In this document: one piece after another, positions 1,198-24,733 of the stretch
How positions within the stretch are numbered: the stretch's first letter is position 1
Layout: each line of letters starts with the position of its first letter
Assembly (NCBI GenBank): GCA_007134485.1
Contig: SLKT01000010.1
Location: 1-64,000, forward strand
From: Wenzhouxiangella sp.
GTDB lineage: Bacteria > Pseudomonadota > Gammaproteobacteria > Xanthomonadales > Wenzhouxiangellaceae
Direction: 5' to 3'
DNA: 64,000 nucleotides
The notes under the pieces: model-generated
What the model saw: only the letters and a program-made list of their open reading frames with translations
The model's database searches: none
What the model was told of the DNA's origin: nothing
Position numbers and translations under genes: made by a program

Positions 1198-1271
1198 CGA
1201 GGGTCTCCTTCACATTTGTGATGTTGACAATTGTGAAGGACTGGATGTGAAGGGGGGATGAATGAAGTGGA

Positions 1272-1342: not shown

Positions 1343-1351
1343 CGAAGCGCG

Positions 1352-2888: not shown

Positions 2889-3215
2889 TCAGATGGTTTC
2901 GTCGACAAATGCCTTGAGTGCCGACTTGGTCAATGCACCAACCTTGGTGCCCTGGAGCTCGCCACTGGCGAAAATCATCAGGGTGGGAATGCCACGGATC
3001 TTGTAGCGTGTGGTGACTTGCTGATTCTCATCGATGTTGATCTTGGCGATCTTGAGCTTGTCGCCATACTCATCGGCCAGCTCGTGCAGGATCGGCTCGA
3101 TCATCTTGCATGGACCGCACCACTCGGCCCAGTAATCGACCAGCACCGGGCCATCGGCCTTGAGGACTTCCTGGTCGAATTCGCTGTCGGATACATGAAC
3201 AATATTTTCACTCAC
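2889..3215 (-). CDS. trxA: Thioredoxin
   Basis: WCGPCK active site, full thioredoxin fold; GTG start (VSENIVHV) preceded by AAGGAG. Confidence 0.95.
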   Translation of the reverse strand: MSENIVHVSDSEFDQEVLKADGPVLVDYWAEWCGPCKMIEPILHELADEYGDKLKIAKINIDENQQVTTRYKIRGIPTLMIFASGELQGTKVGALTKSALKAFVDETI

Positions 3216-3433
3216 GGTCCAAAACTCCTTGGAGGGGTTGAACAGCCCGGCCATCCCGGGCCATGTACAGGGGATTGCGTTCAGATTTTCGCGTGGATTC
3301 CCGAATTATACGGGCTGGCAAGTCATCAGGGTGCCTTAACGCCTATACTACGCGCTTTGTGTCCAACCTGCGGCACTGTCATCAGGCAGTTATATCGAGG
3401 CCCGGACATGCGATTTCAAGTAATGGAGATTCA

Positions 3434-4702: not shown

Positions 4703-4778
4703 GAAAACGGTCGGGACCGGCCGGCATCCAGTTGTGATAATCTCGCCACAGGCCTGATCATCGCGACATCGACGAACC

Positions 4779-5663
4779 TTGAACCCGAGATTCACCCCAG
4801 CCCTTTCCGGTCGCCTGGCGCTGTTGACCAGCACTTTGCTGGCCATCGCGGTGGTCTGGTTGCTGGTGCGCATGGCCTGGCTGATTCTGGCCGGCCCGGA
4901 AGTCGAATCGGCGCCCGTGCCGCCGGTGCCCAGGGCCGCCCAGACCAGTGTTTCGGACAATGGCGATTTCGAATGGGACCTGTTCGGTCGCTCCCGCGAG
5001 GCAGCGGCACCGGCCCCGGTCACGGTGGCTGCCAGCCGCGGCGATCTGCGCTTGCGCGGGATCATGAGCCGGGCCGGCGGCGGATATGCCATCATTGCCG
5101 ATGATCAGGGTCGCGAGGAGGTCTTCAAGGTGGGTGACGAACTGCCCGACGGCACGCGCCTGGAAAGTATCGAGGCGCAACGGGTCATCATCGCCCGTAA
5201 TGGCCGCTCGGAGTCCCTGGAAATCGATGAGAATCGGGGTTCGGGACAACCCTCTCGCTCAACCGCTCGCACCGACAGCGCCCCGACACAGGTCGCGCCC
5301 CTGCCCGGCATGCGCGGCTTCCAGTCCCCGACCGCCATTTCGGCAGCCTCGATTCAGGATCGGGGCAGTGTCGGACAATTCGACCCGGCTTCGATGAGTG
5401 ACCAGATTTCGATCCTGCCGGTCTCGTCCGGTGGTTTTCGAGTACGGCCCGGTCGTGATGCCAGCCTGTTCACGGCCGTCGGCCTGCAAATCAATGACGT
5501 GGTGACCGCCATCAACGGCCAGCCCATCGAGTCCGAAGAAGACGCGCGCGCGCTGTTTGCCGATATCATGCAGCGCGGAGAAGTCGCCATCACCGTCGAT
5601 CGTCAGGGACGCGAGGTGACACTGCGACCCGACCTCGACCAGATCATGCGGAGTGTGCAATAA
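4779..5663 (+). CDS. gspC: Type II secretion system protein C
   Basis: N-terminal TM, HR domain (LRLRGIMSRAGGGYAIIADDQGREEVFKVGDEL), C-terminal PDZ-like region; followed by gspD. TTG start. Confidence 0.88.
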   Translation: MNPRFTPALSGRLALLTSTLLAIAVVWLLVRMAWLILAGPEVESAPVPPVPRAAQTSVSDNGDFEWDLFGRSREAAAPAPVTVAASRGDLRLRGIMSRAGGGYAIIADDQGREEVFKVGDELPDGTRLESIEAQRVIIARNGRSESLEIDENRGSGQPSRSTARTDSAPTQVAPLPGMRGFQSPTAISAASIQDRGSVGQFDPASMSDQISILPVSSGGFRVRPGRDASLFTAVGLQINDVVTAINGQPIESEEDARALFADIMQRGEVAITVDRQGREVTLRPDLDQIMRSVQ

Positions 5664-5665
5664 CA

Positions 5666-7567: not shown

Positions 7568-9038
7568 ATTTCGACCCGGCTATGCCTTTGCCCGCAAGCG
7601 CGGCGTGGCCGTGGCCGGGCGCAATGGTGACGGTCGGGTTCGCCTGGCCGTGCGCGAACCGGTCGACCTGCCTGCCATCCAGGAAGTCCGTCGCCGCCTG
7701 ACTGATCCGGTCTCCATCGAACGCATGGACGAGTCGGAGTTCGATCAACTGGTCACCCGGCTTTACGAAACCGGTGACGACACCGCCCGCCAGGTCGCCG
7801 AGGACATCGGCGAGGATCTGGATCTTGCCCGTCTGGCCGACGACCTGCCCGAGCCGGCCGATCTGCTCGAAAGCGAGGATGATGCACCGATCATCCGCCT
7901 GATCAACGGCGTGCTGACCCAGGCGGTGCGCGAGAACGCCTCGGATATTCATCTCGAACCGTTCGAGGAGCGCCTGTCCATCCGCTTCCGGGTCGATGGT
8001 GTATTGCGCGAGGTGATGTCACCGGCGCGCGCGCTGGCCGGGTTGATCACCTCCCGGATCAAGGTCATGGCCCGGCTGGATATCGCCGAGAAGCGGGTCC
8101 CCCAGGACGGACGGATCGGATTGCGTATTGCCGGGCGACCGGTGGATGTGCGCGTGTCCACCCTGCCCTCCAACCACGGCGAGCGCGTGGTGTTGCGCCT
8201 GCTCGACAAGCAGGCCGGGCGACTGGACCTGGCCGAGCTCGGCATGGATTCGGAAACCGAATCCAGAATGGCCGAGCTGATCGCGCGACCACACGGCATT
8301 CTGCTGGTGACCGGACCGACCGGCTCGGGCAAGTCCACGACCCTGTACGCCGCGCTGATGCGCCTGAATGATCGCAGTCGCAACATCATGACGGTCGAGG
8401 ATCCGATCGAATACGATCTGGACGGCATCGGCCAGACCCAGGTCAACCCCAAGGTCGACCTGACCTTTGCCCGCGGACTGCGCGCCATCCTGCGTCAGGA
8501 TCCCGACGTGGTCATGGTCGGCGAAATCCGTGACCTGGAAACGGCCCGCATTGCTGTCCAGGCCAGCCTGACCGGTCACCTGGTGCTGTCAACATTGCAT
8601 ACCAATACGGCGGTCGGCGCCATCACCCGCCTGGTCGACATGGGCATCGAACCGTTTCTGCTCGCCTCCAGCCTGAATGGGTCGCTGGCCCAAAGGCTGG
8701 TTCGGGTGCTCGACCCGGACCATCGCGAGGCCTACGAGATCAGCGCCGCCGAACTGGAGCGACTGGGCATCGCGGACCAGGGACCGACCCGCCTGTATCG
8801 TCCGGCAAGCGACCTGCCGACCGGCGTCTCGGGCTATCGCGGCCGCAGCGGCATTTATGAGCTGGTGCCGGTCAACGAGGCCATGCGCGCCCTGATCCAC
8901 GACTCGGCCGCCGAATCGCGCCTGGAGTCACTGGCCCGCGAACTCAGCCCGTCCATCCTCGAAGACGGCTGGCGCAAGGCGGTCGCGGGCATCACCTCCC
9001 TGGAAGAGGTTTTGCGGGTGACGCGGGCCGGGGGTTGA
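7557..9038 (+). CDS. gspE: Type II secretion ATPase GspE
   Basis: Walker A GPTGSGKSTTLYAAL, Asp box, VMVGEIRD, LSTLHTN; overlaps the gspD 3' end. Confidence 0.95.
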   Translation: MDAEFRPGYAFARKRGVAVAGRNGDGRVRLAVREPVDLPAIQEVRRRLTDPVSIERMDESEFDQLVTRLYETGDDTARQVAEDIGEDLDLARLADDLPEPADLLESEDDAPIIRLINGVLTQAVRENASDIHLEPFEERLSIRFRVDGVLREVMSPARALAGLITSRIKVMARLDIAEKRVPQDGRIGLRIAGRPVDVRVSTLPSNHGERVVLRLLDKQAGRLDLAELGMDSETESRMAELIARPHGILLVTGPTGSGKSTTLYAALMRLNDRSRNIMTVEDPIEYDLDGIGQTQVNPKVDLTFARGLRAILRQDPDVVMVGEIRDLETARIAVQASLTGHLVLSTLHTNTAVGAITRLVDMGIEPFLLASSLNGSLAQRLVRVLDPDHREAYEISAAELERLGIADQGPTRLYRPASDLPTGVSGYRGRSGIYELVPVNEAMRALIHDSAAESRLESLARELSPSILEDGWRKAVAGITSLEEVLRVTRAGG

Positions 9039-9062
9039 GTGATGCAGACCGGGGAGCACCAC

Positions 9063-9106
9063 ACCAACCAAACCAACTAAACCAACCAAACAAAAAAACC
9101 AACCAA
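9063..9106 (+). repeat. 9-bp tandem repeat ACCAACCAA (4 units, one interruption)
   Basis: ACCAACCAA ACCAACTAA ACCAACCAA ACAAAAAA ACCAACCAA in the gspE-gspF gap. Confidence 0.8.
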
Positions 9107-9114
9107 ACCGAATA

Positions 9115-10311
9115 ATGGGCGCATTTGAATACCAGGCACTGAGCGGCGACAAACCCACCCGCGGGGTACTGCAGGCCGACACTGCCCGCGCCGCCCGTGC
9201 ACAGCTGCGTGAACGCGGCCTCATACCGCTGGAAATTCAGGAGGTTGAAAAGGATACCTCAAGTCAATTGTCCATTGGTGGCGGGGGCCGCGACCGGGCG
9301 TTGCTGTTGCGCCAACTGGCCACCCTGCTGAAAGCCGGTCTGACCCTGGAGGAAGTGCTCAGTGTGCTGACCGAGCAGACCGAATCCAGCCGCCAGCGTC
9401 GCCAGCTCGGGGCCATCCGATCTCGGGTCATGGAAGGGCAAAGCCTGTCGGCGGCCATGGCCGAGCATCCGGGTCTGTTTCCGCGTCTCTACACCGCCTC
9501 GATCGCCGCCGGCGAACATGCCGGACAACTCGAAGGCGTGCTGGCCCGCCTGGCCGATTACGCCGAACAGCGCGAAGAAACCGCGCGCAGCGTCGGCCTG
9601 GCGCTGATCTACCCTGCCCTGCTGGCGTTGATTTCAGTCGCCGTGGTCTGGGGATTGATCGGATTCGTCGTGCCGCGCATTACCGGGGTCTTCGAGCAGG
9701 TCGGACAGGAGCTGCCCATGCTGACCCGCAGCCTGCTGGCCTTGTCCGGGTTTCTTTCCGAACAGGGTCTGTGGCTTGCCCTCGGCCTGGTCGCCTTGCT
9801 GATTGGCGGTCTGGCCGCGTGGCGACATGCCGGCACCCGCCAGCATATCGATCGAATCCTGCTCAGGTTGCCAATCATCGGTCGCCTGGTCCGGGCCCGC
9901 CAGACGGCCAGCTTCACCCGCACGCTGGCCATCCTGACATCCAGCGCGGTGCCGCTGGTCGAGGCCTTGCGGGTGGCCGCCACGGTGGTCATGAACCGGG
10001 TGGTGCAAAGCGATATCGAACGCGCCGCCACCCAGGTCCGGGAGGGCGTGTCCCTGACCCGTGCGCTGGACCAGTCCACCTGGCTGCCGCCCATGGCCCG
10101 CCGGCTGATCGGCGGTGGCGAAAAAAGCGGCGAACTGGCCCCGATGCTCGAACACGCCGCCGATATCCAGGAACGCGAACTGCAATCCGCCACCACGGTG
10201 GTGCTGGCCATCCTGCAGCCCATGCTGATCCTGGCCGTCGGGTTGATGGTGCTCTATATTGTCCTGGCCATCATGCTCCCGATCCTGAGCATGAGCCAGT
10301 TACTGGCTTGA
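9115..10311 (+). CDS. gspF: Type II secretion inner membrane protein GspF
   Basis: T2SSF domains duplicated, three TM segments, gene order gspCDEF. Confidence 0.93.
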   Translation: MGAFEYQALSGDKPTRGVLQADTARAARAQLRERGLIPLEIQEVEKDTSSQLSIGGGGRDRALLLRQLATLLKAGLTLEEVLSVLTEQTESSRQRRQLGAIRSRVMEGQSLSAAMAEHPGLFPRLYTASIAAGEHAGQLEGVLARLADYAEQREETARSVGLALIYPALLALISVAVVWGLIGFVVPRITGVFEQVGQELPMLTRSLLALSGFLSEQGLWLALGLVALLIGGLAAWRHAGTRQHIDRILLRLPIIGRLVRARQTASFTRTLAILTSSAVPLVEALRVAATVVMNRVVQSDIERAATQVREGVSLTRALDQSTWLPPMARRLIGGGEKSGELAPMLEHAADIQERELQSATTVVLAILQPMLILAVGLMVLYIVLAIMLPILSMSQLLA

Positions 10312-10387
10312 AAAACGGGATGTTCTCGCTGAGTCTTCAGTCCCGGTTTCGGGCCTGCTGTCAAAGTGCAAACAGAAAAAAACCTTT

Positions 10388-10489
10388 AAACGCAAAGACG
10401 CGAAGATGCAGAGAAAGAAATTGAACTCTAAAGACATGCTTTTTGGTTTCTCTTCGACTCCGCGTCTTCGCGCGAGAATTTGCGTTTCC
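10388..10489. repeat. Long imperfect inverted repeat made of roughly 8-bp units (GCAAAGAC/GCGAAGAT...)
   Basis: AAACGCAAAGACGCGAAGATGCAGAGAAAG ... TCTCTTCGACTCCGCGTCTTCGCGCGAGAATTTGCGTTT. Confidence 0.7.
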
Positions 10490-10533
10490 AGGCAGTCCGG
10501 ACACGTGAACGTTAGGGTGGAGAACGTTTCAAC

Positions 10534-10622
10534 CTCGTCCGTCGGGGATGTGACCCCGACCTACAAGGAAGCGGGCGGAACAACCCACTGTAGGTCGGCC
10601 CGACGCGGCCGACGGTCAACGC
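10534..10622. repeat. Inverted pair of GTAGGTCGG..CCGACGG hairpin repeats (BIME-like)
   Basis: 10537-10563 on minus strand (GTAGGTCGGGGTCACATCCCCGACGG) facing 10590-10621 on plus strand (TGTAGGTCGGCCCGACGCGGCCGACGGTCAACGC). Confidence 0.7.
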
Positions 10623-10695
10623 TGAACGCTTCACCACCGGTCAGTTGGCAGATCCAACACCAGGTCGCCATGGTGTCGTTGACATGGGTAGGTAC

Positions 10696-11394
10696 ATGAT
10701 CCGGTTCGAGCATGTGGCCAAGCGCTACCCCGGGGGGATTCAGGCGCTTAGTGATGTCAATTTCAGCCTTGAGAAGGGTGAGCTGGCGTTTCTGACCGGG
10801 CATTCCGGGGCGGGTAAATCGACCCTGTTGCGCCTGATTGCCCTGCTCGAGCGGCCCAGCCGCGGGCAGGTGGTGTTTGACGGGCGCAATGTCGGCAAGC
10901 TGGCGCGTCGGCATATTCCCTACTTGCGCCGCCGCGTCGGGGTGATTTTCCAGGACTATCGACTGCTCAACGACAAGCGGGTGTTCGACAACGTCGCCCT
11001 GCCGTTGGTGATTGCCGGCCTGTCGTATTCCGAAATCAAGCGCCGGGTGCGTGCGGCGCTGGACAAGGTCGGGCTGCTTGAAAAGGAGCGGATGTATCCG
11101 CCGATGCTTTCAGGGGGCGAGCAGCAGCGCGTCGGTATCGCCCGGGCCATCATCGGCAAGCCGCCGCTGATTCTGGCCGATGAGCCCACCGGCAATCTCG
11201 ATCCGGACATGTCGGCCGAGCTGATGAACTATTTCCTGCAGCTCAACGAGCTGGGCGTGACCATGCTGATCGCCAGTCATGATCTGGACCTGATCCGCCA
11301 GCTTGGACGACGGGTGCTGGTCCTCAAGGCCGGTGAAATGGTCGATGACCTGCCGGCCCGCTCCGCCCTGACCGGGGATGACACTCATGTCTAG
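10696..11394 (+). CDS. ftsE: Cell division ATP-binding protein FtsE
   Basis: [43 protein letters not shown]; followed by ftsX. Confidence 0.95.
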
Positions 11395-12340
11395 CGCCAG
11401 GCGCGGCGGCCAGGAGCAATTGCCGGGCGCGGCCGGTCTGCGCGCGTGGGCGCGCCGGCATGCCTTCAGTTTCCTGTCATCACTGGGTTCTCTGACTCGC
11501 CAGCCGATCGCCTCAAGCATGACCGTGATCGTTCTGGCGGTGGCCCTGACGCTGCCGACTGCCTTGTATGTCACCCTGGACAACGTCGAGCGAATCAGCC
11601 AGAACTGGGAGCGCCTGGACACCATCTCGGCATTCCTGAGTGAGGATGTTGGTGAATCCGAGGCCATGCGTCTGGCCAGCCGCCTGAGCAACTGGTCGGA
11701 AATCGCCTCGGTGGATCCAATCAGCCCAAAAACCGGTCTGGCCGAGTTGTCCGGGCAACTGGACCTGGGCGACCTGGGTGATCGGATCGAGGACAATCCA
11801 CTGCCCTGGGTGCTGGAAATCTATCCGACCAGCGGCGCCGACATGGCTGTGCTGGTGCACCGGGTCGAGCGGGAAAGTGAGATCGAAATGACCGTGGTCG
11901 ACCTGCAATGGCTGGAGCGCCTCGACGCCATTCTCGAAGTCATCAACCAGTTGATCGTGCTGCTGGCGCTATTGTTTGCCATCGGCGTGGCCTTCATCAC
12001 GGCCAATACCATTCGCATGGATATTCAGAACCGCCGCGAGGAGATCGAGGTCATGGCACTGGTCGGCGCCACGGCCGGATTCGTGCGGCGTCCGTTCCTG
12101 TATTCCGGCCTGTGGTATGGCCTGCTCGGCGGAGCGCTGGCCTGGCTACTGATCCGCACCGGGCTGATCGTGCTCTCGGCTCCGATCGCCCGCCTGAGCG
12201 GCAGCTATCAAACCGAGTTCCAGCTGCACGCGCCCGGGCCGGAGGTGACTGCGATCCTGATCCTGGGTAGTGGCCTGTTCGGCATCATCGGATCGTGGCT
12301 GGTGGTCAGCCAGCACCTCAGACGCATTAACCCGGGTTAA
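11387..12340 (+). CDS. ftsX: Cell division permease FtsX
   Basis: Four-TM FtsX/MacB-like permease overlapping ftsE. Confidence 0.93.
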   Translation: MSSARRGGQEQLPGAAGLRAWARRHAFSFLSSLGSLTRQPIASSMTVIVLAVALTLPTALYVTLDNVERISQNWERLDTISAFLSEDVGESEAMRLASRLSNWSEIASVDPISPKTGLAELSGQLDLGDLGDRIEDNPLPWVLEIYPTSGADMAVLVHRVERESEIEMTVVDLQWLERLDAILEVINQLIVLLALLFAIGVAFITANTIRMDIQNRREEIEVMALVGATAGFVRRPFLYSGLWYGLLGGALAWLLIRTGLIVLSAPIARLSGSYQTEFQLHAPGPEVTAILILGSGLFGIIGSWLVVSQHLRRINPG

Positions 12341-12933
12341 CCCATCGTGAGGGCGTTGGCGACCTTTTCGGAATACTCGTTTCGCAGGGCCTTCCACTCG
12401 AGGCGAAACCACGGCGCGATCGGGGCGGTTTCGTCGTTGACCATGCGATCGACTTCGGCCGGCTCGACGAATCGCCAATCGGCGATCTCGGAAGGGTTGG
12501 GCCGGATCTGATCATCGGTTGTCCGGCCCACGTACACCCAGCACAGTTCATGTTCCGATCCCAGATCCTGGTAGCGGGCCTGGTAGCGGAACTTGTAGAT
12601 GAACTGCAGTGATGCCCTCAGGCCCAGTTCCTCTTCGATACGTCGGCCGGTGGCGGTGTCCATGTCCTCGCCGGCGCGCGGATGCGAGCAGCAACTGTTG
12701 GCCCAGAAACCGGGCCACAAACGCTTGCCGGGCGCACGCTGCTGAATCAGCAGCCGACCATCGGGGTTGAACAGGAATACCGAAAACGCGCGGTGCAGCA
12801 GTCCATCGCCATCGTGACAGTCGCCCTTGGACTTGTAACCGATCGGATTGTCCTGCTCATCGACCAGAATCAGCGATTCCGATTCCGATGAGACCACCCG
12901 CGCCGGACCGGCTTGATCAGGCACAGCCAACAT
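12337..12933 (-). CDS. idi: Type I isopentenyl-diphosphate delta-isomerase (Nudix)
   Basis: FSVFLFNPDGRLLIQQRAPGKRLWPGFWANSCCSHP...RIEEELG; terminal gene of the mevalonate operon. Confidence 0.9.
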   Translation of the reverse strand: MLAVPDQAGPARVVSSESESLILVDEQDNPIGYKSKGDCHDGDGLLHRAFSVFLFNPDGRLLIQQRAPGKRLWPGFWANSCCSHPRAGEDMDTATGRRIEEELGLRASLQFIYKFRYQARYQDLGSEHELCWVYVGRTTDDQIRPNPSEIADWRFVEPAEVDRMVNDETAPIAPWFRLEWKALRNEYSEKVANALTMG

Positions 12934-15178
12934 TGACCTCCAGGGCATGGTAACCGGCCTCGCGGATGGCCCGGGCCACCTTGCCGGGATCGTCCGGACA
13001 CAGGGCAATGATCGATCCGCCTCCACCACCACCGGTCAGCTTGGCGCCGGTCGCGCCGTTGTTGCGGGCAATCTGAATCAGTTCTTCCAGTTCCCAACTC
13101 GAGACCTGCATGGCGTTGAGCAAGCCCTGGCAGACGTTCATCATTTCGCCCAGGGTTTCATAATCACTGGTCTGAAGCGCCTGGAGGCCCTGGCCGACCA
13201 GGGTGTCGATTTCATCGAAGATGCGCTCGTACAAGCCGGGGTTGCGTTTCCAGGCTTCCCGCACCCGGGCCACGGTGCGCGCGGTCAGACTCTCGATACC
13301 GCTCATGCCGATCACCATGGGCAAGGGCTGCTGGATTTCGATGACTTCGCGCAACGGCTGCTCGCCGGTTCGATAGAGCATGAACTGTCCGTAGGTCGCC
13401 AGGGTGTTGTCGAGACCCGATGGCGTTCCATGCGCGACTTTCTCGCATTCGAAAGCCAGTTCGTTGATGGTTTCGTCACTCAGGTTCAACCCGAAATGCA
13501 GGCTCATTGCACGGATGACGGCGACCGCCAGGGCTGCCGATCCGCCCAGCCCCATGGCTCTGGGTACGTTGGGAAAGATCTCGATGCGCATGCCGCGACC
13601 ATCCAGGTCCAGGGACTTGAGCAAGCGTTGCATGGACCGGGTGAACGAGGGTGGCCTGGCGGCATTGAAATCCAGACGCTGCTCTACACCCCAACGCGGA
13701 ATGATCAGCTCCACGCCCTCCCGGGTGTCTTCGATGCGCGCCTGGATGGCCAGCGGAATCGGCGCGGCGATGGCGCGACGACCATACACCACGGAATGCT
13801 CGCCGAGCAGGATGATCTTGCCGTGACCGGCCCCGAGCGACTCACCCTCGAGGACTTCCGTCTCGCGCGCACTGGCCACGCTGGGTTCGGTCTGCTCGTT
13901 GACCGTGCGCATGATTTCCTCGGCTTTCCAGATCTTGATGTCCCCGGAAGCGATCAGGCGCTCGACCACGGTATCGAAATGCTCCGCCGGCACGCCGGCA
14001 GCGGTCGCCACGCTGCGGGCATGCAGGGTCATGTGGCCCTGCTGTATGCCCTCGGTGACCAGGGCGCGCAGCGCCGAAAAGGTCTGCGCCAGTCCGACCG
14101 CACCCATGACCTCGGCCAGTTCGCGGGCGTTTTCCACCGACAGCATGCGCATGTTCAGCGCCACGGTCGGGTTGGTCTGCAGGGGCCCGCCGACGGTACC
14201 CACCTTGATCGGAATCTCGAGCTCACCGAGCAGGTCGCCGTTTTCAGCCTTTGACCAATGGGTCAACGAGGTATACCGCCCTCCGCGCGCGGCATAGGCG
14301 TGCGCACCTGCCTCTATGGCGCGCCAGTCATTGCCGGTGGCCAGGGCTACGGCATCGATGCCGTTCATGATGCCCTTGTTGTGAGTGGCGGCACGATACG
14401 GATCGATGCGGGCAAAGTCGTTGGCCACGATGATGCCGTCGCGGACCTGTTCACCATCAAACCCCTTGCCGGTCAGCAAGCCGGTCGGGATGCGCACCCG
14501 GGCCTTGACCAGGGCGCGATCGGCCAGGTTGGAAAGGATGCGCAGAAAGACCCGGCCTTCGGCAATATTCTCGACCAGCGAAGCCACGCCTTCGCACATG
14601 GTATTGACCAGGTTGGCGCCCATCGCATCACAGGTATCAACCAGCAGATGCACCACGACCATGTCGCCGCCGGGACCTTGCGAGGGATGAATGAAGACTT
14701 CCAGATCCTTGGCGCCGCCACCACGGGCAATCATTTTCGGGTGCAGGCTGTTGGCCAGGTTCAGGATTTCGTGCTTGCGCTGCAACAGCGCGGCCTTGGC
14801 CCGCGACGGGTTGGGCACATCGACAATCTGGACCTGCCCGATCAACAGCGGCTCCTGGCTGATGACCTCGAAACCACCGGCCTGGCGGGCCAGCTTGGCG
14901 GCCGAGCTCAAGGCGGCGACAATCGACGGTTCCTCGACGACCAGCGGAATGACATATTCCTTGTCGTTGATCAGGAAGTTCAGCCCAAGTCCGACGGGCA
15001 GGCCCATGACCCCGATGACGTTCTCGATCATCTTGTCGGCCAGATGAACCGACAGGGTATGGCGACCCGACTGCAGATTCTGGTAGTCCCTGGCGTCCAG
15101 CAGGCCGCGATCGCGAACCGTGCGCACCCGCTCGGGCACGCTCATCTTGTAAAACCGGGGAATTCTCGATCGCTCCAT
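12917..15178 (-). CDS. Bifunctional class II HMG-CoA reductase / mevalonate kinase fusion
   Basis: N-terminal class II HMGR (ENVIGVMGLPVGLGLNFLIN, DAMGANLVNTMCE, NKGIMNG, GHMTLHARSVA) continuous with GHMP mevalonate kinase (GHGKIILLGEHSVVYG, MGLGGSAALAVAVIR, HGTPSGLDN, AKLTGGGGGGSII). Confidence 0.93.
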   Translation of the reverse strand: MERSRIPRFYKMSVPERVRTVRDRGLLDARDYQNLQSGRHTLSVHLADKMIENVIGVMGLPVGLGLNFLINDKEYVIPLVVEEPSIVAALSSAAKLARQAGGFEVISQEPLLIGQVQIVDVPNPSRAKAALLQRKHEILNLANSLHPKMIARGGGAKDLEVFIHPSQGPGGDMVVVHLLVDTCDAMGANLVNTMCEGVASLVENIAEGRVFLRILSNLADRALVKARVRIPTGLLTGKGFDGEQVRDGIIVANDFARIDPYRAATHNKGIMNGIDAVALATGNDWRAIEAGAHAYAARGGRYTSLTHWSKAENGDLLGELEIPIKVGTVGGPLQTNPTVALNMRMLSVENARELAEVMGAVGLAQTFSALRALVTEGIQQGHMTLHARSVATAAGVPAEHFDTVVERLIASGDIKIWKAEEIMRTVNEQTEPSVASARETEVLEGESLGAGHGKIILLGEHSVVYGRRAIAAPIPLAIQARIEDTREGVELIIPRWGVEQRLDFNAARPPSFTRSMQRLLKSLDLDGRGMRIEIFPNVPRAMGLGGSAALAVAVIRAMSLHFGLNLSDETINELAFECEKVAHGTPSGLDNTLATYGQFMLYRTGEQPLREVIEIQQPLPMVIGMSGIESLTARTVARVREAWKRNPGLYERIFDEIDTLVGQGLQALQTSDYETLGEMMNVCQGLLNAMQVSSWELEELIQIARNNGATGAKLTGGGGGGSIIALCPDDPGKVARAIREAGYHALEVNVGCA

Positions 15179-15203
15179 GATCCGACTTACTCCAACTTGG
15201 TGT

Positions 15204-16280
15204 TCAACGCGTCGCACGGGTGTCCACCCGGACCCCGTGCAGGTCCGTGGTCAACGCAAGCAACGGCATGTCCTGCGACGTCGACCAGTCGGACAGTTCC
15301 GAAATCTGTCCAGGGTCGGTCGTCGCGACCATGCCGATATCGCCTGATCCTGCGCCACAGGGCTTGTAGGCCAGACCCAGACGCTCGCATTGCTCGGCAA
15401 TTCGCGCATGCGCCGGACTGACAATATTCAATCCGGTCAAACCACCCATTTTACCCATAAGCTGCCCGTAATCGTGAAACTGCTCGATGAGTGCCTCGGC
15501 ATCGCCACGCTCGATCGCGCCATGAGCAAGTTGACAGACAGTGTTCATGGAATCCAGGAGTTTCCTTGCGGAATCGGGATCATCCTGCCGCCAGCGTTCG
15601 AATCCCTCGAGCAGTTCAATCGTGGATGCGGATTGTCCGGTCCAGACAAAGGCCAGCGTCAGACTCTCCGGCAGGCTGACCCGGGTCACGGAGGCCTGAT
15701 CATCGACGACCTGGTAGCGGATGATGCCGCCACACAGACTGGTGGCCAGATCGATGCCGCTGCCACGACCATCCTGACCGCGCCGGTAAGGTTGCAACAG
15801 TCGATTCAGGGAGCTCATGGACAAACCTGACTGTAGCGAGCCGCCGGCAAACTGGCGCAATGCGGCATCCATGGCCACGGCCACCGCAGAGCTCGACCCG
15901 AGTCCGAGCTTGGTGCTGCCCCTGGGTCCGGTTTCGAACAGTTCCGTGGTGTCGATGCGAATCGTCATGGGGCGGGTGTGTCCGAACCGCTTGCTGGCCA
16001 GACGATACAGGTAGCTGAACAGGTCAGCCGTGCGAGTCAGCCGTGACCAGCCCGGGTTGGAGACATCCCACTCGATCCGCCCCGACGCGTCAATGACGAA
16101 ACTGATCGGCTCGATACCAAGCTGTGGTGCGGCCATGCTGCACTCATCCGCACGGCAAGGCTCCATCTCCACCCGGGCATGACGATCCACGGCCATCGAT
16201 AAACCGGGCGCACCGGCCAGGACCGCGTATTCACCCAGCAATACCGCCTTTCCGGGCGCTATGGCGCGAATGACCGTCAT
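15204..16280 (-). CDS. mvaK2: Phosphomevalonate kinase (GHMP family)
   Basis: APGKAVLLGEYAVLAG, LGLGSSSAVAVA, C-terminal PCGAGSGDIG; operon context. Confidence 0.85.
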   Translation of the reverse strand: MTVIRAIAPGKAVLLGEYAVLAGAPGLSMAVDRHARVEMEPCRADECSMAAPQLGIEPISFVIDASGRIEWDVSNPGWSRLTRTADLFSYLYRLASKRFGHTRPMTIRIDTTELFETGPRGSTKLGLGSSSAVAVAMDAALRQFAGGSLQSGLSMSSLNRLLQPYRRGQDGRGSGIDLATSLCGGIIRYQVVDDQASVTRVSLPESLTLAFVWTGQSASTIELLEGFERWRQDDPDSARKLLDSMNTVCQLAHGAIERGDAEALIEQFHDYGQLMGKMGGLTGLNIVSPAHARIAEQCERLGLAYKPCGAGSGDIGMVATTDPGQISELSDWSTSQDMPLLALTTDLHGVRVDTRATR

Positions 16281-17254
16281 GAAATCACCCGGGCGCCTTC
16301 ACCGAGGCCGGTGTAAAGCACGTTTTCCACACCCGGAACGGATTCCAGTTCGGCGCCCACCCGTGCGGCATTTCCGGGCTCGCAGATGGCCTTGATCTGT
16401 GGACCGGCATCGATGGTAAAGAACACCCCGATCCCCTGCTCGCGCAGTGCTCGCACGCAATGCATGCAGGATACGCTCGCGCCATTCCAGTAGATCAGCC
16501 CGGGACGCGCGGCCAGCACCGAGGCATGCATTTTCAGGGCGCTGGATTCGGAAACCTCGGCCAACTGTTCGAAATCCCGCCCGGCAATGGCCCGGCCAGC
16601 GGCAGCAACATCTTCCGCCACCGAATCGACCCAGGATCGGTAGTACGGCGATGTGTCCATGGTCCGCAGCATGCCGTCGGTGGAACCGACCTTCTTGGCT
16701 CCGGAATCGGTAATCGCCACAACCACTTCCAATGGCCATTCATCCGCGGCCAGCAGCGGTGCAGCCACACAGTCACTGCCATCGGCCTGCATCCCGGAAT
16801 GCATTTCCACAAATCCGCCAAAGATCGAGCGGGCCGCCGATCCCGAACCACGCCGGGCCAATTCCGACAGTCGATCATGGGGCAGGTCGAGCCCGAAAAG
16901 ACGTGCCGCAGCCACGACTAATGCGGCAAATGCCGAGGCCGAGCTGGCCAGCCCCGCGCCGGTCGGGAAGTTGTTGCGACTCTCAACCCTGCAAAACGGG
17001 CCACCACCGGCCAGCTCGCGCATCAGATCCAGTACCCGACCAATGCGTTCGGCATCGGCTGGTCGGCCATTGAGGCTCAACTCGTCCTGGTTCAGGGCGG
17101 CATCAGCAACCAATCGGGACTCGGTTTCCAGTCCGTCCAGGGTGATCGAGACCGACCCGGCCGCCGGCAGGTTGAGCGCAAGGTCGCGCTTGCCCCAGTA
17201 CTTGACCAGGGCGATATTGGCCCCGGCACGGGCAGTGACAGGCGCGGCGGTCAT
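16277..17254 (-). CDS. mvaD: Diphosphomevalonate decarboxylase
   Basis: ANIALVKYWGKRDLALNLPAAGSVSITLDG, NNFPTGAGLASSASAFAAL, SGSAARSIFGGFVE. Confidence 0.95.
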   Translation of the reverse strand: MTAAPVTARAGANIALVKYWGKRDLALNLPAAGSVSITLDGLETESRLVADAALNQDELSLNGRPADAERIGRVLDLMRELAGGGPFCRVESRNNFPTGAGLASSASAFAALVVAAARLFGLDLPHDRLSELARRGSGSAARSIFGGFVEMHSGMQADGSDCVAAPLLAADEWPLEVVVAITDSGAKKVGSTDGMLRTMDTSPYYRSWVDSVAEDVAAAGRAIAGRDFEQLAEVSESSALKMHASVLAARPGLIYWNGASVSCMHCVRALREQGIGVFFTIDAGPQIKAICEPGNAARVGAELESVPGVENVLYTGLGEGARVIS

Positions 17255-17387: not shown

Positions 17388-17436
17388 GAGTTTACGGGGG
17401 TGGGCGCCGAGTGGCCCTGCCCGGGGCCGGGTTACT
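17388..17436 (+). repeat. Dispersed GC-rich repeat, copy 1
   Basis: GAGTTTACGGGGGTGGGCGCCGAGTGGCCCTGCCCGGGGCCGGGTTACTCAG; second copy at 42181-42230. Confidence 0.75.
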
Positions 17437-18790
17437 CAGAGGTACTCAGTTCCCGTGGCTCCTGCTGTTGCACGAACGGCTGAAAGCGCGCCCTGGGGAA
17501 CTCCACTCGAATTTCCGTACCCACACCGAGTTCACTGTCGGCCTGGACGGTCCACCCAAAGCGACTGCACAATCGCATGACGATGGCCAGGCCAAGCCCG
17601 TAGCCCTCATTGCTGCGATCATGACCGCGGTAGAACGGCTCGAACATGCGCTCGAGATCCGACTCGCTCATGCCGCAGCCGGTATCCTTGACGACCACGC
17701 CGTTGGCATCGATCAATACCTCGACGCGCCCGGCGTCGGTGTAGGTCAGCGCATTGCGCAACAAGTTGGTGAACACGATCGCCAGGACCCGCTCGGGGGC
17801 ATCGACCTCCAGTAGGCCATCAGCGCGAATAGAGGTTTCGATCTCGTCGGATGGCTGGATGGCCCGTTCAACCTGCTCGAGGGTATCGGTCAGCAGATCA
17901 TTGAGTACGACCGATGACCATGACAGCTTCGACTCGCTCTCGCGGGCGAGAATGAGCAGGGTTTCCAGCAGTGCCTCCATGTCGCGCACTGTTCGTTGCA
18001 TGCGCTCGACAATGCGCTGGCGTTTCTCCGGATCATCGAACCGCGCCATCAAGTCCAGGTTGGCCCGAATCACCGCCAGTGGCGTACGCAATTCGTGACT
18101 GGCGTTGCGGGTGAAGTTGCGCTCGCGCTGGATATAGGACTCGAGACGGTCAATGAACTGATTGAAGGCATTGACCAGGGTGACGACCTCCGAATCGGCG
18201 GTATCACTGAATTCCTTGGGGCAGAATTTTTCGAACTGGCCGGTATCAAAATCGTAATTGCGCACGCGATCGCCCAGCAATACGATTTTCGAAACCGCCC
18301 GCCTGGACATGACATAGCCGACCCAGGTCAGGATGTAGATCAGCAGCAAGACGCCGGTCAACGGAGCAATGCCGAAGTAAAAGGCCAACGCCGAGACCTG
18401 AACCTCATCGAAGACCAGGTATAACCGGTCGGCGCCTCGATCGGAGATATGGACGACCGGCTCCGAGCCCGGCGCCTCGACGACGCGATGAAAGCCGACC
18501 GGTTCATCGCGCAACCACACCGGGACCTGGCTGTAATCGCTCTGGCGCGCCATGTAGCCGCGCAAGTTATTGGTATTGGGCAGGGGAAAACTTCGGTCCT
18601 CGGCGTAGTTCGACCAGAAATGTTCGGCCTCGCCGTTGAGCGCTTCCTGGACCAGGACCCGCTCGACCACGGTGGCCGCGGCATAGACGCCAAGAATCGT
18701 GGCGATGCTGATCGCAAGCACCTGGAGAATGAACACCCGCACCAGCTTGGTGTTCAATCCCCCTTTCAGAATGCGATTCAGTGCATTCAT
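17432..18790 (-). CDS. Two-TM sensor histidine kinase
   Basis: TM-periplasmic-TM, HAMP-like region, FTRNASHELRTPLAVIRANLDLM (H box), NLLRNAL (N box), VKDTGCGM, GYGLGLAIV. Confidence 0.93.
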   Translation of the reverse strand: MNALNRILKGGLNTKLVRVFILQVLAISIATILGVYAAATVVERVLVQEALNGEAEHFWSNYAEDRSFPLPNTNNLRGYMARQSDYSQVPVWLRDEPVGFHRVVEAPGSEPVVHISDRGADRLYLVFDEVQVSALAFYFGIAPLTGVLLLIYILTWVGYVMSRRAVSKIVLLGDRVRNYDFDTGQFEKFCPKEFSDTADSEVVTLVNAFNQFIDRLESYIQRERNFTRNASHELRTPLAVIRANLDLMARFDDPEKRQRIVERMQRTVRDMEALLETLLILARESESKLSWSSVVLNDLLTDTLEQVERAIQPSDEIETSIRADGLLEVDAPERVLAIVFTNLLRNALTYTDAGRVEVLIDANGVVVKDTGCGMSESDLERMFEPFYRGHDRSNEGYGLGLAIVMRLCSRFGWTVQADSELGVGTEIRVEFPRARFQPFVQQQEPRELSTSE

Positions 18791-18793
18791 GAA

Positions 18794-19819
18794 TCAGCGT
18801 TTCTTGAACCGGTAGTGGGCGACCATCCATGCATTGCCGTGATCATAAGCGAACAGTTCTTCACAGGCCATGAAGAACATCCGCCAGCGTTGCGTCCAGA
18901 CCCTGGCCTGATCGCCGTGCTGACCCGCCAGGATTGCCTCGACCTGACCACGCCGGGCATCGAGATTATCCAGCCAGGCGCGCGCGGTGCGGGCGTAATG
19001 TCGCCCGGAGTAGAGTCGACGGCTTTCAAGCAACACATCATGCTGAAAGTGTAGCAGTGTGTCGGCAGCCGGCATCAACCCCCCGGTAAAGAAGTAACGC
19101 CCCATCCAGTTGCCCTGCCCTTCGGTCTCGAATGGATAGGCAAGAAACTGATGACAGAAAATGTGCACGAACAGGTAACCGTCGTCTTCAAGCCAACCTG
19201 CGATCCGTTCGAGCAAGACCCGATAGTTGCGCACATGCTCGAACATTTCGACCGAAACCACACGGTCGAACCGCTGATCCAGTTCAAGCTCATTGACATC
19301 GCAGGTGATGACCTTGATGTTGTGCAGGCCCAGCTCCAGCGCCCGTGACTCGATGTAGCGGCGCTGCGAGGCCGAGTTTGAGACCGCGGTGATTCGGCTT
19401 GCCGGGTACTCGGCCGCCATCCACAGGGTCAGGGAGCCCCAACCACAACCCAGCTCGAGTACCTGTTGGCCATCCTTGAGCCGGGCATGTTCGCAACTGG
19501 CCTTGAGCATGGCGACCTCGGCCTCGTCCAGGGAATCGATGCCTTCCGGCCACAGGGCGCTGGAATACTTCAGTCGTGCCCCGAGTGTCTGCAGGTAGAA
19601 GTCCGTGGGCACCTCGTAATGCTGCTCATTGGCTGCATCGGTCTCCAGGGCGATCGCCGATCGAGCCAGCGACTCGATCAGTTCACGGTGGCGCAGGGAC
19701 CGCACTTCGGGATCATGACCCGCCTCGTCGGCCAGTCTCCGCTTGAGTAGCTGACGAATGCCGATTCGGACCATCCAGTCCGGCAACCGCCCGCTTTCGG
19801 CAAGGGCAATCAGATTCAT
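18794..19819 (-). CDS. CFA synthase-like SAM methyltransferase
   Basis: HYEVPTDFYLQTLGARLKYSSALWPEG, VLELGCGWGSLTLWMA, VSVEMFEHVRNY. Confidence 0.88.
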   Translation of the reverse strand: MNLIALAESGRLPDWMVRIGIRQLLKRRLADEAGHDPEVRSLRHRELIESLARSAIALETDAANEQHYEVPTDFYLQTLGARLKYSSALWPEGIDSLDEAEVAMLKASCEHARLKDGQQVLELGCGWGSLTLWMAAEYPASRITAVSNSASQRRYIESRALELGLHNIKVITCDVNELELDQRFDRVVSVEMFEHVRNYRVLLERIAGWLEDDGYLFVHIFCHQFLAYPFETEGQGNWMGRYFFTGGLMPAADTLLHFQHDVLLESRRLYSGRHYARTARAWLDNLDARRGQVEAILAGQHGDQARVWTQRWRMFFMACEELFAYDHGNAWMVAHYRFKKR

Positions 19820-20379
19820 GAATTGGTTTCCGGACTGGAAATGATGTTGCGATCTAGTGAAGTGTCGCTAGTCGATTCACGCGCAAGTCTGAATAGCAGC
19901 GGCAACACCACCGCCCAGCTCAGGCCGGTGGCCAGAATCACCTGCCAGGCCGGCGCCAGCCAGTCGACCGCACCAAAGCGCATCCCGGCATAGTACGACA
20001 GCGGCGAGCCAATGGCGCCGGCCACGGCCAGAATGGTCAGCCGATGCTTGAATGCGCGCATCGAATGATTAATGACCAAGGCCACGGCCAGCCACAGCAA
20101 CATGATCCACAGCGGCGCCACACCCGCCCACGGCCAGGGCATGGCGAATTCCAGCAGGCCCAGCTGGATCCATGCGCTGTCCAGAGTGATACCAACAAGC
20201 AGGCAGCTCGCGATCATGCGCCCGTCGAGCGGGTGACGGTTGGCGCGATTCAGTTGCCACAAAAGCATGACGCCCACCACCAGCATTCCGGTCCACAGCC
20301 ATCCGTGGGCAGCACCCAGAACGCAAGCCGGCCAGCTCAACTGGAACAATCCCTGGTTGATCATGAATGCCCGACTCAT
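19816..20379 (-). CDS. DUF2878-type integral membrane protein
   Basis: Multiple TM helices; position between CFA genes typical of DUF2878 proteins. Confidence 0.75.
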   Translation of the reverse strand: MSRAFMINQGLFQLSWPACVLGAAHGWLWTGMLVVGVMLLWQLNRANRHPLDGRMIASCLLVGITLDSAWIQLGLLEFAMPWPWAGVAPLWIMLLWLAVALVINHSMRAFKHRLTILAVAGAIGSPLSYYAGMRFGAVDWLAPAWQVILATGLSWAVVLPLLFRLARESTSDTSLDRNIISSPETNS

Positions 20380-21659
20380 CAGCGATCCGCCGTCAGTCCC
20401 GTCCAGTCAGGCGCACGGTAATCCGGCCCGGCCAGAAGCAGGTGAACATCGCTGATGGCGCGCTCGCTGAATCCGCCCTCGCAATAGGCCAGGTAATAGC
20501 GCCAGCGTCGGCGAAACATGTCATCGAAGCCCATGGCGGCAATGTCGTTCCAGGCAGCCTCGAACCGGTCACGCCAGTCGGACAATGTGCGCGCGTAACT
20601 GCCGCCAAGATCGGCAAGCTCGATCAGGCCGAGTCGGGTCGAGCGAGCCATGGCCGAGGTAATGGTGCTGACCGATGGGATGAAACTGCCAGGGAAAATA
20701 TAGCGCTTGATGAAGTCCACGCTCCTGAGCGCACCGGCATAGCGATAGTCCTCGATGGTGATGGCCTGCAGAATGGCCAAACCGTCGGGCTTGAGGAGAT
20801 GATCAATACGTTGAAGATAGGTATCCAGGTATTGGTGGCCAACCGCCTCGATCATTTCAACCGATACCAGCTTGTCATAACGACCCTCGAGATCACGGTA
20901 ATCGCTCATCAACACTTCGACCCGATCGTCCAGCCCGGCTTCGGTGACACGCTTCAAGGTGGCCTCGTATTGACGCCTGGAAATGGTCGTCGTGGTCACT
21001 CGACAGCCATAGCGCGATGCGGCATGCACGGCCAGTGCACCCCAGCCGCTGCCGATTTCGAGCAGATGATCTTCGGAGCCCAGGTCGAGTTTTCGGCACA
21101 AACGCTCGAGCTTGTTGAACTGGGCCTGTTCCAGGGTTTCCTCCGGGTTCAGATACAAAGCGCTGGAATACATCATGGATTCATCCAGCCATGTCGCAAA
21201 GAATTCATTACCCAGATCATAGTGGGCGGCAATGTTGCGCCGACTGCCCTTGAGGCTGTTGCGATTGAAGCGGTGCCAGAGACCCAGCAGCCAGCCGGAC
21301 AGACGCGCCGACCCGGAATCCACTCGTTCAAGCAGGTCGCGATTGCGCGCCATGATTCGAACCACTGCAACCAGATCCGGGCTATCCCAAAGCCCGGCCA
21401 TGTAGGCTTCCGCGGCGCCGACACTGCCGCCGGTCGCCATCAGACGCCAGAAGGCCTGGTCGTGAACCGTGACCCGGGCATTCAACTCGTCCTTGCCATT
21501 GCCCAGTTGAATGGTTTCCAAACCATCACTGATCACCAGGCAGCCGTGCTCGAGCGAGCGAAGTCGAGCGATGACGCGATCACGCATCAATGCCGAAAGG
21601 CGACTGTGCTGACGGTCGCGGATGCGTTCGGCGGTCTTGTCTGTGGCATTCATGTTCAT
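20379..21659 (-). CDS. Cyclopropane-fatty-acyl-phospholipid synthase family protein
   Basis: AHYDLGNEFFATWLDESMMYSSALY, LLEIGSGWGALAVHAA, VSVEMIEAVGHQY. Confidence 0.93.
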   Translation of the reverse strand: MNMNATDKTAERIRDRQHSRLSALMRDRVIARLRSLEHGCLVISDGLETIQLGNGKDELNARVTVHDQAFWRLMATGGSVGAAEAYMAGLWDSPDLVAVVRIMARNRDLLERVDSGSARLSGWLLGLWHRFNRNSLKGSRRNIAAHYDLGNEFFATWLDESMMYSSALYLNPEETLEQAQFNKLERLCRKLDLGSEDHLLEIGSGWGALAVHAASRYGCRVTTTTISRRQYEATLKRVTEAGLDDRVEVLMSDYRDLEGRYDKLVSVEMIEAVGHQYLDTYLQRIDHLLKPDGLAILQAITIEDYRYAGALRSVDFIKRYIFPGSFIPSVSTITSAMARSTRLGLIELADLGGSYARTLSDWRDRFEAAWNDIAAMGFDDMFRRRWRYYLAYCEGGFSERAISDVHLLLAGPDYRAPDWTGLTADR

Positions 21660-22402
21660 TCAACGACTCGATCAGGGTGCGTGTGGAATGGCGTGCGTTT
21701 CAACCACAAACGCAGGGCCTGCCAGTAAATGCCGGCGAGCACTCTTGCGGTCATCAGCGGAAACTTCAGCGGCGCCATGCTCATGTTGCGTGCGGTCACC
21801 GGCGACAACGCCAACCGCATGCCTGCTTCGAAACAGTGTGCGCCGCCATCGGTCACATTCATGTGAATGTCGATCCGATCCGGCATCAACCCGAAACGCC
21901 AGTCATAGCCGAGATGCATCGGCAGAAATGGCGAAACGTGAAAGCACTTGTCGAACACGAAGCGATATTCAGGGCCGGTCTGGCCACGACAATCCAGGGC
22001 GTAAGCATGTCGCTCGCCCCATGGCGTGTTGTGCACTTCGGCCAGCACGGCTTGCAATTGCCCTTCCTGATGACAGTAGTAAAAGGTGACCGGATTGAAA
22101 TTGCATCCCCACTGGCGCAAATGGGTCAACATGAACACCGGCCCGTTCGGCCGAAAGCCCAGATCGGACTGGATTCGATCGCGCACCGCGCTCCCCAGGG
22201 AAAGATCAGGCGGACCGTAATGATCTCGGCGACGAAAGCTGACCAGGTTGAACCGCTCCAGTGACCACAGCCGACTGCGAGCAAAGATCTCGTCGAGGCG
22301 ATCGACATCCAGCAGGCTCATGTAAAGGCGGTAGCGGAAGGCGTGAACGCCCGGCTTGTGGCGCCGGTGCCAGACATTGCCATGAGCCAGGGCGTCAAAC
22401 AT
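21656..22402 (-). CDS. DUF1365 family protein
   Basis: GNVWHRRHKPGVHAFRYRLYMSLLDVDRL, NFNPVTFYYC, HVSPFLPM. Confidence 0.88.
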   Translation of the reverse strand: MFDALAHGNVWHRRHKPGVHAFRYRLYMSLLDVDRLDEIFARSRLWSLERFNLVSFRRRDHYGPPDLSLGSAVRDRIQSDLGFRPNGPVFMLTHLRQWGCNFNPVTFYYCHQEGQLQAVLAEVHNTPWGERHAYALDCRGQTGPEYRFVFDKCFHVSPFLPMHLGYDWRFGLMPDRIDIHMNVTDGGAHCFEAGMRLALSPVTARNMSMAPLKFPLMTARVLAGIYWQALRLWLKRTPFHTHPDRVVE

Positions 22403-23636
22403 TGGTCATTCCAAGCTGTTCAATGACCCGGGCGGCGCTGGCGACGCCATCCTCGTGGAAACCCCATCCCCACCAGGCGCCACAGTACCAGGTGCGTCTG
22501 GGGCCGTTGATCTCACTCCAGCGTCGCTGGGCAATGACGGCATCCGGGGTGAATACCGGATGGCGATAATGACGACGAACCAGGATCTGATTCGGGTCGA
22601 TCCGCTCGGTCTGATTGAGGGAAACGATGAAATCGCGCTTTGACTCGATCCCTTGCAGCCGATTCATGTAGTAGTTGACCCGGCACTGGTCATGATCGCG
22701 CGGATCGCGCCGGACATTCCAGCTGGCCCGCGCCCTGGGCAGCCGTGGCAACAGGCTCGAGTCGGTGTGCAGCACGGTTTCGTTGTCCTGGTAAGCGATC
22801 GCGCCGAGAATGCTGCGCTCGGCCCGATCAGCATCGCCGAGCAACCTGAGCGCCTGGTCGCTGTGACAGGCCAGGATGACTGCATCGGCGACAACCTCGT
22901 CGTGCTCGGTCAACACCTTCACGCCATTGTCCCGGCGCTCGATGCTGCGAACGGCGGTCCCGGTCTCGATCCGCGCCGGGCCCCTGGCGGCGGCTTCCAC
23001 GTAAGCCCGGCTGCCTCCGTCAATGGTGCGCCAGGGCGGACGCTCACCCAGCTCGAGCATGGCGTGATTGTCCATGAATGCCAGCAGGTGACGCATCGGA
23101 AACTCGCGGATCCGATCCATCGGAGCCGACCACAGGGCCGAGGCCATGGGCATGAGATGCAGTTCGCCAAACATGCGGCCCATCGAGCTGTCGTCCAGCC
23201 ACTGGCCCAGCGTCGTTCGGTCATCGAGCGTTTCAAGCAACCCCGGCGCCATTCGGTAAAAGCGCACGATATCCCGAACCATGCCGAGAAACGCCGGGCG
23301 AATCAGGTTGCGCCGTTGGCAGAACAATCGATCCAGGCTGGTTGCGTTGTACTCCAGGCCACTGGCTGCATCGGAAACTGAAAAGCTCATGTCCGAGGTC
23401 TTCCAGGAGACATTCAATTCATTCAGCCAGGTACTGAACAGTGGATAGTGACGCTCGTTGAAGACGATAAAACCGGTGTCGATCGGAATGGTTCGGCCGT
23501 TGTCCTCGATGATCTGGGTGTCGGCGTGACCACCCGGGCGCGAATCGGCCTCGAACACGATGACCTCGTGATCGCGGCCAAGATGCCAGGCAGCGTACAG
23601 TCCGGACACCCCGGCACCGACGATCACCAGTTTCAT
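22395..23636 (-). CDS. FAD-dependent amine oxidase-like oxidoreductase
   Basis: VIVGAGVSGLYAAWHLGRDHEVIVFEADSRPGGHADT Rossmann motif; YCGAWWGWGFHEDGVASA C-terminus. Confidence 0.9.
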   Translation of the reverse strand: MKLVIVGAGVSGLYAAWHLGRDHEVIVFEADSRPGGHADTQIIEDNGRTIPIDTGFIVFNERHYPLFSTWLNELNVSWKTSDMSFSVSDAASGLEYNATSLDRLFCQRRNLIRPAFLGMVRDIVRFYRMAPGLLETLDDRTTLGQWLDDSSMGRMFGELHLMPMASALWSAPMDRIREFPMRHLLAFMDNHAMLELGERPPWRTIDGGSRAYVEAAARGPARIETGTAVRSIERRDNGVKVLTEHDEVVADAVILACHSDQALRLLGDADRAERSILGAIAYQDNETVLHTDSSLLPRLPRARASWNVRRDPRDHDQCRVNYYMNRLQGIESKRDFIVSLNQTERIDPNQILVRRHYRHPVFTPDAVIAQRRWSEINGPRRTWYCGAWWGWGFHEDGVASAARVIEQLGMTNV

Positions 23637-24571
23637 GAGTGGCGATCAATCCGACGATCAATCCGCCGGGCCTGAAGCATGGCCGGCGGCACGGACTTGA
23701 GATCGCGCACCAGACCGATGCGTTCGAACATCCACAACACGTAATAGCTGATGTCGATTTCCCACCAGTAGAATCCCTGACGCGCGGAACCGGGGAAATG
23801 ATGATGATTGTTGTGCCAGCCTTCGCCGAGTGTCAGCACGGCCAGCAGGGCGTTGTTGCGACTGTCGTCGGTGGTTTCGAAACGGCGCTTGCCCCAAACA
23901 TGGGCCAGGGAGTTGATGGTCAGCGTGACGTGGATCAGAACGACGGTGGACAGGAAGTAACCCCACACCAGGATCTGCCAGCCATTGGTGCCCAACCCGG
24001 GCGCCCATCGTTCAAGCAATACGCCCAGACCGAACAGCGAAGCGGCATACAACACCGGAATCGCCAGGTCATAGCGATCCAGCCAGCGCAGTTCGGGGAA
24101 ACGGGCCAGGTCTGGAATCTGGCGATAGTCGGTCGCGAAATGGGCGCGACTGAGAAACCATCCCATGTGGCTCCACCAGAAACCATGACGAGGCGAGTGC
24201 GGGTCATCGGCGCGATCGGAGACCTTGTGGTGATGGCGATGATGCGCCGCCCACCACAAGGGTCCGCGCTGGGTGGCGCTGGCGCCCAGTAGCGCAAATG
24301 CAAACTGGACCGGGCGCGAGACCCGGAACGTCTTGTGGGCAAAGTAGCGGTGATAAAAGGCGGTGATCGCAAACATGCGCACCAGGTAACTGGCCACGAA
24401 AACCGCCACCGCAACCCACGACACGCCCACAAGAAAAACGCCCAGGCAGGCCAGGTGAAGACCAATGAACGGCAGGATGCGAATCCAGTCGACTCTGCGC
24501 TCAGCGATCGAATCTTCGGATTCCAGGTTCTCGGAGGCAATCCAGGAGGCCAGGCTTTGCTTTACGGACAT
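23633..24571 (-). CDS. Acyl-CoA/acyl-lipid desaturase
   Basis: Three His boxes HRYFAHKT, HHRHHH, HNNHHHF with TM helices. Confidence 0.92.
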   Translation of the reverse strand: MSVKQSLASWIASENLESEDSIAERRVDWIRILPFIGLHLACLGVFLVGVSWVAVAVFVASYLVRMFAITAFYHRYFAHKTFRVSRPVQFAFALLGASATQRGPLWWAAHHRHHHKVSDRADDPHSPRHGFWWSHMGWFLSRAHFATDYRQIPDLARFPELRWLDRYDLAIPVLYAASLFGLGVLLERWAPGLGTNGWQILVWGYFLSTVVLIHVTLTINSLAHVWGKRRFETTDDSRNNALLAVLTLGEGWHNNHHHFPGSARQGFYWWEIDISYYVLWMFERIGLVRDLKSVPPAMLQARRIDRRIDRHS

Positions 24572-24733
24572 GAATGTGGAGCAATCAGAATCATGATCGC
24601 TATTGGACTCGGCGAGCGGTGAATCCCCTGTGAAACAGATCAATGAAACAGATAACACCTACGCCTGCTCTGGAAAATTTCCTACCCGCCCAGGGGCAAT
24701 TCGACCGATTTGCAGGGGCTGGATGATCGGGAC

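Follow-up and report, generated by a model that had tools for sequence, protein, structure and literature searches.

What do seven closely packed genes at positions 17432–24571 of a Wenzhouxiangella contig make, and what controls them? The window analysed here is a stretch of 64,000 nucleotides (contig SLKT01000010.1, positions 1 to 64,000; assembly GCA_007134485.1, 94.6% complete, 3.35-Mb genome). Most probably, the locus specifies the whole pathway to protective membrane fatty acids that contain a furan ring. We hold with good confidence that it would be a complete furan fatty acid (FuFA) operon under a dedicated two-component system, in place of RpoE-ChrR control. Its genes are:

23633–24571, minus strand: membrane fatty acid desaturase (acyl-CoA Delta9 or SCD-like, three histidine boxes)
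22395–23636, minus strand: UfaD-like FAD oxidoreductase, amine-oxidase fold
21656–22402, minus strand: UfaO-like DUF1365 protein (predicted furan-ring oxygenation)
20379–21659, minus strand: UfaM-like methyltransferase, cyclopropane fatty acid (CFA) synthase family
19816–20379, minus strand: DUF2878 inner-membrane protein
18794–19819, minus strand: FufM-like methyltransferase (FufM/LIME1/CNMT family)
17432–18790, minus strand: membrane sensor histidine kinase, periplasmic domain of about 90 amino acids, no ExxE metal motif

All seven open reading frames lie on the minus strand and are joined, in order, by overlaps of 4, 8, 4, 1 and 4 bp and then a 3-bp gap. This is the layout given in a preliminary description of the locus, whose family labels were also right: from desaturase to kinase, the Pfam profiles are FA_desaturase, Amino_oxidase, DUF1365 (2e-79), CMAS, DUF2878, CMAS, and HisKA with HATPase_c. 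The arrangement is not due to chance, because the same order is met again throughout the family and in further orders of Gammaproteobacteria; it is widespread in this class rather than special to one genome. In clusters outside Wenzhouxiangellaceae, an additional DUF1295 gene is frequent. The cluster is also present in two metagenome-assembled genome (MAG) records with the labels Flavobacteriaceae and Acidobacteria, which may be mis-binned.

The FAD protein (top PDB match LkcE), the DUF1365 protein and the first CFA-like protein are homologues of UfaD, UfaO and UfaM. They stand together in the UfaD-UfaO-UfaM order of the known FuFA pathway genes of Rhodopseudomonas palustris, RPA2571-2569 (PMC7380195), which supports the earlier assignment to the furan-type clusters. 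The same three families form the Rhodobacter sphaeroides system (RSP2144/RSP1091/RSP1090), where deletion of chrR raises FuFA levels; here, by comparison, a single operon adds the desaturase, DUF2878, the FufM-like gene and the kinase. Relative to E. coli CFA synthase, the UfaM-like protein keeps E239, I268 and Y317, and two bicarbonate-site residues are altered (C139 to S, H266 to Q). Glutamine occupies the H266 position in 96/96 cluster-linked UfaM-like copies, whereas the ordinary CFA paralogues of Methylophaga retain C and H. The altered bicarbonate site would mark a UfaM rather than a cyclopropane synthase. The DUF1365 gene is the only one in the genome. Its product is predicted to form a beta-barrel (pLDDT 96) with invariant H12, R14, R96, N103, N125, Y134 and K152; a fold search found no significant solved relative, with weak resemblance to fatty-acid-binding-like and nitrobindin barrels. 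The desaturase, whose nearest solved structures are the SCD1 acyl-CoA desaturases, probably supplies the monoene.

What does the second methyltransferase do? In a PDB search, it matched plant coclaurine N-methyltransferase (CNMT) at 3e-70 and CFA synthase at 7e-28. It shares 29% identity with the UfaM-like protein of the same operon, and its closest relatives in a scan of the genome collection came from Wenzhouxiangella species and MAGs. Dimethyl-FuFA is made by FufM, which shares 26% identity with UfaM (PMC7380195) and 37.9% with Arabidopsis AT4G33110/LIME1 (PMC10940516). In R. palustris, fufM (RPA0924) lies outside the ufa operon; the FufM-like gene is inside it here. We take LIME1 (AtFUFM1) to belong to the plant CNMT family, and the second methyltransferase is apparently of the same family as FufM and LIME1. 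The case for a FufM-like enzyme is strong but indirect, the link being the plant homologue and not RPA0924 itself. Because this methyltransferase appears FufM-like, with the plant CNMT family rather than CFA synthases as its nearest kin, the product is likely mono- or dimethyl-FuFA. It had been suggested that the desaturase and two methyltransferases make a possibly different product. This idea is not supported, because the desaturase and the second methyltransferase also occur in ChrR-controlled Stenotrophomonas clusters (Smlt2375-2367, PMC11832516) in the same desaturase-to-second-methyltransferase order, so the product need not be new chemistry, and membership in the FufM/LIME1/CNMT family predicts the known dimethyl-FuFA.

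Reduced Wenzhouxiangella genomes carry a variant of the locus. In G007 and G024, the locus lacks the native ufaD-O-M genes and a divergent cassette (33–44% identical) is found elsewhere, with DUF2878, the second methyltransferase and the kinase still in place. This pattern fits a second methyltransferase acting downstream of ufaD-O-M. G021 and G004 likewise carry a divergent ufaD-O-M cassette. Loss of the pathway in the reduced genomes was ruled out, since DUF1365 is present in that cassette. At two of these loci (L240, L242) the cassette directly follows a tRNA-like sequence, which suggests acquisition at a tRNA site. In a related genome (G036:C30, loci L035 and L243) the kinase and UfaM-like genes are kept with a DUF1365 remnant that is interrupted by two in-frame stops; ~20 kb off lies another ufaD-O-M set, of the divergent kind, an apparent replacement in progress.

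Is the operon under RpoE-ChrR control? The preliminary description had noted the lack of rpoE and chrR, and this was borne out: ChrR (TIGR02451) had no match in the genome and scored above cut-off in 0/37 genomes of the family, compared with 4/24 other genomes of the same order. PF12973 matches elsewhere in the genome were rejected as ChrR because they are secreted cupins lacking the anti-sigma domain. The anti-sigma factor of an RpoE-ChrR regulon is missing. In Stenotrophomonas and its relatives, the same desaturase-to-second-methyltransferase order adjoins RpoE-ChrR, and in S. maltophilia, mutation of chrR increases expression of Smlt2375-2367 by 165- to 697-fold, an effect that depends on sigma-Ec (PMC11832516). 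That locus (rpoEc-chrR-chrA) contains a homologous desaturase-FAD-DUF1365-CFA-(two membrane proteins)-CFA-like operon, but differs in its divergent RpoE-ChrR control, extra DUF1295 and lipocalin genes, and lack of a kinase and of the TTCAC box described below. A two-component system is apparently used here where Xanthomonadaceae use RpoE-ChrR. The elements of this system are, besides the kinase:

496–1197, minus strand: cognate OmpR-type response regulator (Response_reg and Trans_reg_C; 73% identical to the sister-genus regulator beside the kinase)
24619–24634, minus strand: putative response-regulator operator TTCAC-AGGGGA-TTCAC, 47 nt upstream of the desaturase ATG
24602–24607, minus strand: candidate -10 element TCCAAT, 11 bp after the second half-site (position read from the sequence)
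1247–1262, minus strand: possible autoregulatory operator copy TTCATCCCCCCTTCAC with one mismatch, upstream of the regulator gene

The kinase had already been taken to point to two-component control, a proposal now strengthened by a response regulator and a conserved operator, both overlooked before, and by a kinase clade specific to the cluster. The window holds both a sensor kinase and its cognate regulator, and the pair is adjacent in other genera: in sister genera the OmpR-type regulator gene is convergent to the kinase gene end, and in most Wenzhouxiangella it lies ~5 kb from the kinase, with mevalonate and NUDIX genes between. The kinase adjoins the second methyltransferase in 55/80 named loci (Methylophaga, Hahella, Kangiella, Porticoccus, Marinicella), and the regulator is present in 38 of the 50 kinase-linked loci with enough flank, usually convergent with and adjoining the kinase. 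Cluster-linked kinases form a single clade (71 rows, support 100/99), separate from Xanthomonadales kinases whose regulator lies directly upstream. In the interval 496–17254, kinase and regulator have been parted twice, by the mevalonate genes throughout Wenzhouxiangella and, in this genome, by an extra segment that includes rho, genes for type II secretion or pili, and others. The ColRS/RaxRH systems of Pseudomonas and Xanthomonas likewise combine an OmpR-type regulator with a two-transmembrane sensor and are linked to membrane remodelling; the neighbours here, however, are not lipid A genes. ColS/RaxH kinases carry an ExxE metal motif just ahead of the second transmembrane helix (PMC8306577). 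An alignment of 20 kinases showed no such motif here, ruling out that identity. A fold search with the modelled sensor domain (pLDDT 80) gave no significant match, the best being the Mlp24 ligand-binding domain (TM 0.28).

Does the operator follow the kinase? TTCAC-N6-TTCAC has one exact match in the window (0.08 expected) and two in the 3.35-Mb genome. When 9/10 or more matching positions were required, no further than 125 nt from the start of the desaturase, the direct repeat was present in 37/45 kinase-linked loci across Gammaproteobacteria, where it lies ~45 nt upstream of that gene, in 9/27 loci without a kinase in the locus, in 0/5 ChrR-linked loci and in 73/2579 background upstream regions (kinase-linked versus kinase-less, Fisher P = 4e-5, the related loci not being independent). 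Three of the nine kinase-less loci with a box (L129, L158, L185) are on contigs ending near the kinase position. The other six are Lysobacteraceae, and all six of these genomes hold an unlinked kinase homologue; so do some box-less genomes, which makes this observation consistent with the regulation reading rather than discriminating. The operator was found upstream of genes inside the operon in 0–2 of about 65–120 loci per gene and upstream of the mevalonate genes in none of 20 loci; the region upstream of the divergent ufaD-O-M cassette has no clear box. A TAnnnT motif follows the box by 10–12 bp in 27/46 loci, and at no other distance. This recalls the pho box of PhoB, likewise an 11-bp-period direct repeat ~10 bp upstream of the -10, but with TTCAC instead of TGTCA as half-site and a different regulator. 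Box-like repeats also occur at the regulator promoter in 18/48 loci; the copy TTCATCCCCCCTTCAC is by itself no better than chance in the window.

How would the system work? The desaturase would produce a cis-monoene, which UfaM would methylate on the phospholipid to a methyl-trans-ene; UfaD would introduce the second double bond, UfaO would close the furan ring with O2 and the FufM-like enzyme would add the second methyl group, with DUF2878 as a putative membrane accessory. The kinase, made from the operon transcript, would phosphorylate the OmpR-type regulator, which would bind TTCAC-N6-TTCAC upstream of the desaturase in a PhoB-like geometry, standing in for a -35, and thus activate rather than repress the operon.

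Could the product be something else? Cyclopropane or methyl-branched (10-methyl or 11-methyl) fatty acids might be expected of two CMAS-family methyltransferases, and a methyl-ene intermediate does build up in R. sphaeroides without the ufaD-O operon (PMC7380195). This product is nonetheless improbable, given UfaD and UfaO homologues in the known order and replacement of the CFA catalytic positions C139 and H266. FAD_binding_4-type proteins serve 10-methylstearate synthesis, whereas the FAD protein here is of the amine-oxidase type. It is rather doubtful, with somewhat more in its favour, that the second methyltransferase acts on a non-FuFA substrate (an amine, a sterol-like or another lipid), leaving monomethyl-FuFA as the only product: its nearest solved relatives are N-methyltransferases, and some genomes carry the gene without ufa genes nearby. 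Against this, the gene is stably linked to ufa genes in many orders, is kept in the reduced genomes that have a divergent ufaD-O-M cassette, and falls in the family in which we place the plant protein with 37.9% identity to FufM (identity from PMC10940516).

As for control, the kinase and regulator might constitute a general envelope-stress system with the furan operon as one of several targets, or the kinase might merely share the locus. In Xanthomonadaceae and further families of this order, homologous kinase-regulator pairs are encoded apart from the cluster, and the box-like repeats at regulator promoters point the same way; the separate clade of cluster-linked kinases argues against it, as does a box that is rare genome-wide, recurs at the cluster promoter across orders and is not placed before internal operon genes. 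We consider this explanation unlikely, if the strongest of the competitors. An extracytoplasmic function (ECF) sigma factor encoded elsewhere, with the box incidental, would recall the sigma-Ec-dependent Stenotrophomonas operons (PMC11832516), but is very improbable given the absence of ChrR above cut-off from the family and the specificity of the box and its fixed -10 for kinase-linked loci. Several observations nevertheless weigh against a dedicated FuFA operon and regulator. The regulator is 16 kb from the kinase in this genome (same strand); the system may have wider targets, because the Xanthomonadaceae pairs sit off the cluster. Four kinase-linked loci (L034, L036, L038, L137) lack a recognisable box, four more have just a variant second half-site, and the -10 element of this window is weak. 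The FufM assignment runs through a plant homologue, and the second-methyltransferase family may have other substrates, because loci such as L098 and L099 carry the gene without ufa genes nearby. Finally, product, regulator binding and phosphotransfer are all deduced from sequence.

A mevalonate gene set (12337–17254), which had also been overlooked, follows on the strand of the operon at a distance of 177 bp from the kinase. Because the gap has no promoter- or terminator-like site, the transcript may extend beyond the kinase gene. Within the set, 12917–15217 encodes a single 766-amino-acid protein in which a 3-hydroxy-3-methylglutaryl-CoA (HMG-CoA) reductase (degradative-type model) is joined to mevalonate kinase; genes for a phosphomevalonate kinase-like protein and a diphosphomevalonate decarboxylase come next. 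The fusion, for which a literature search returned no description, is highly conserved across Wenzhouxiangella (80–87% identical); the adjoining phosphomevalonate kinase-like protein (15204–16280) shows 31–55% identity, and is evolving much faster.

What is new in this locus is its predicted control by a two-component system, not the content of the cluster. In our literature searches, no publication connected furan fatty acids with a two-component system, and no fatty acid data for Wenzhouxiangella turned up. A bolder proposal, which we put forward tentatively and think rather unlikely to hold in full, is a two-component system dedicated to furan fatty acids throughout the Gammaproteobacteria, with its own conserved operator and an operon-made kinase serving as a feedback sensor of the membrane (its oxidation state or furan lipid). 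Furan fatty acids act as scavengers of radicals and singlet oxygen, and RpoE-ChrR is the route by which bacteria are known to control them. With another regulator, independent of that route and paired with a predicted operator, it becomes directly testable under what conditions, and to what end, many marine and methylotrophic gammaproteobacteria would produce furan lipids; it also predicts which bacteria may be unrecognised producers of dimethyl-furan fatty acids.

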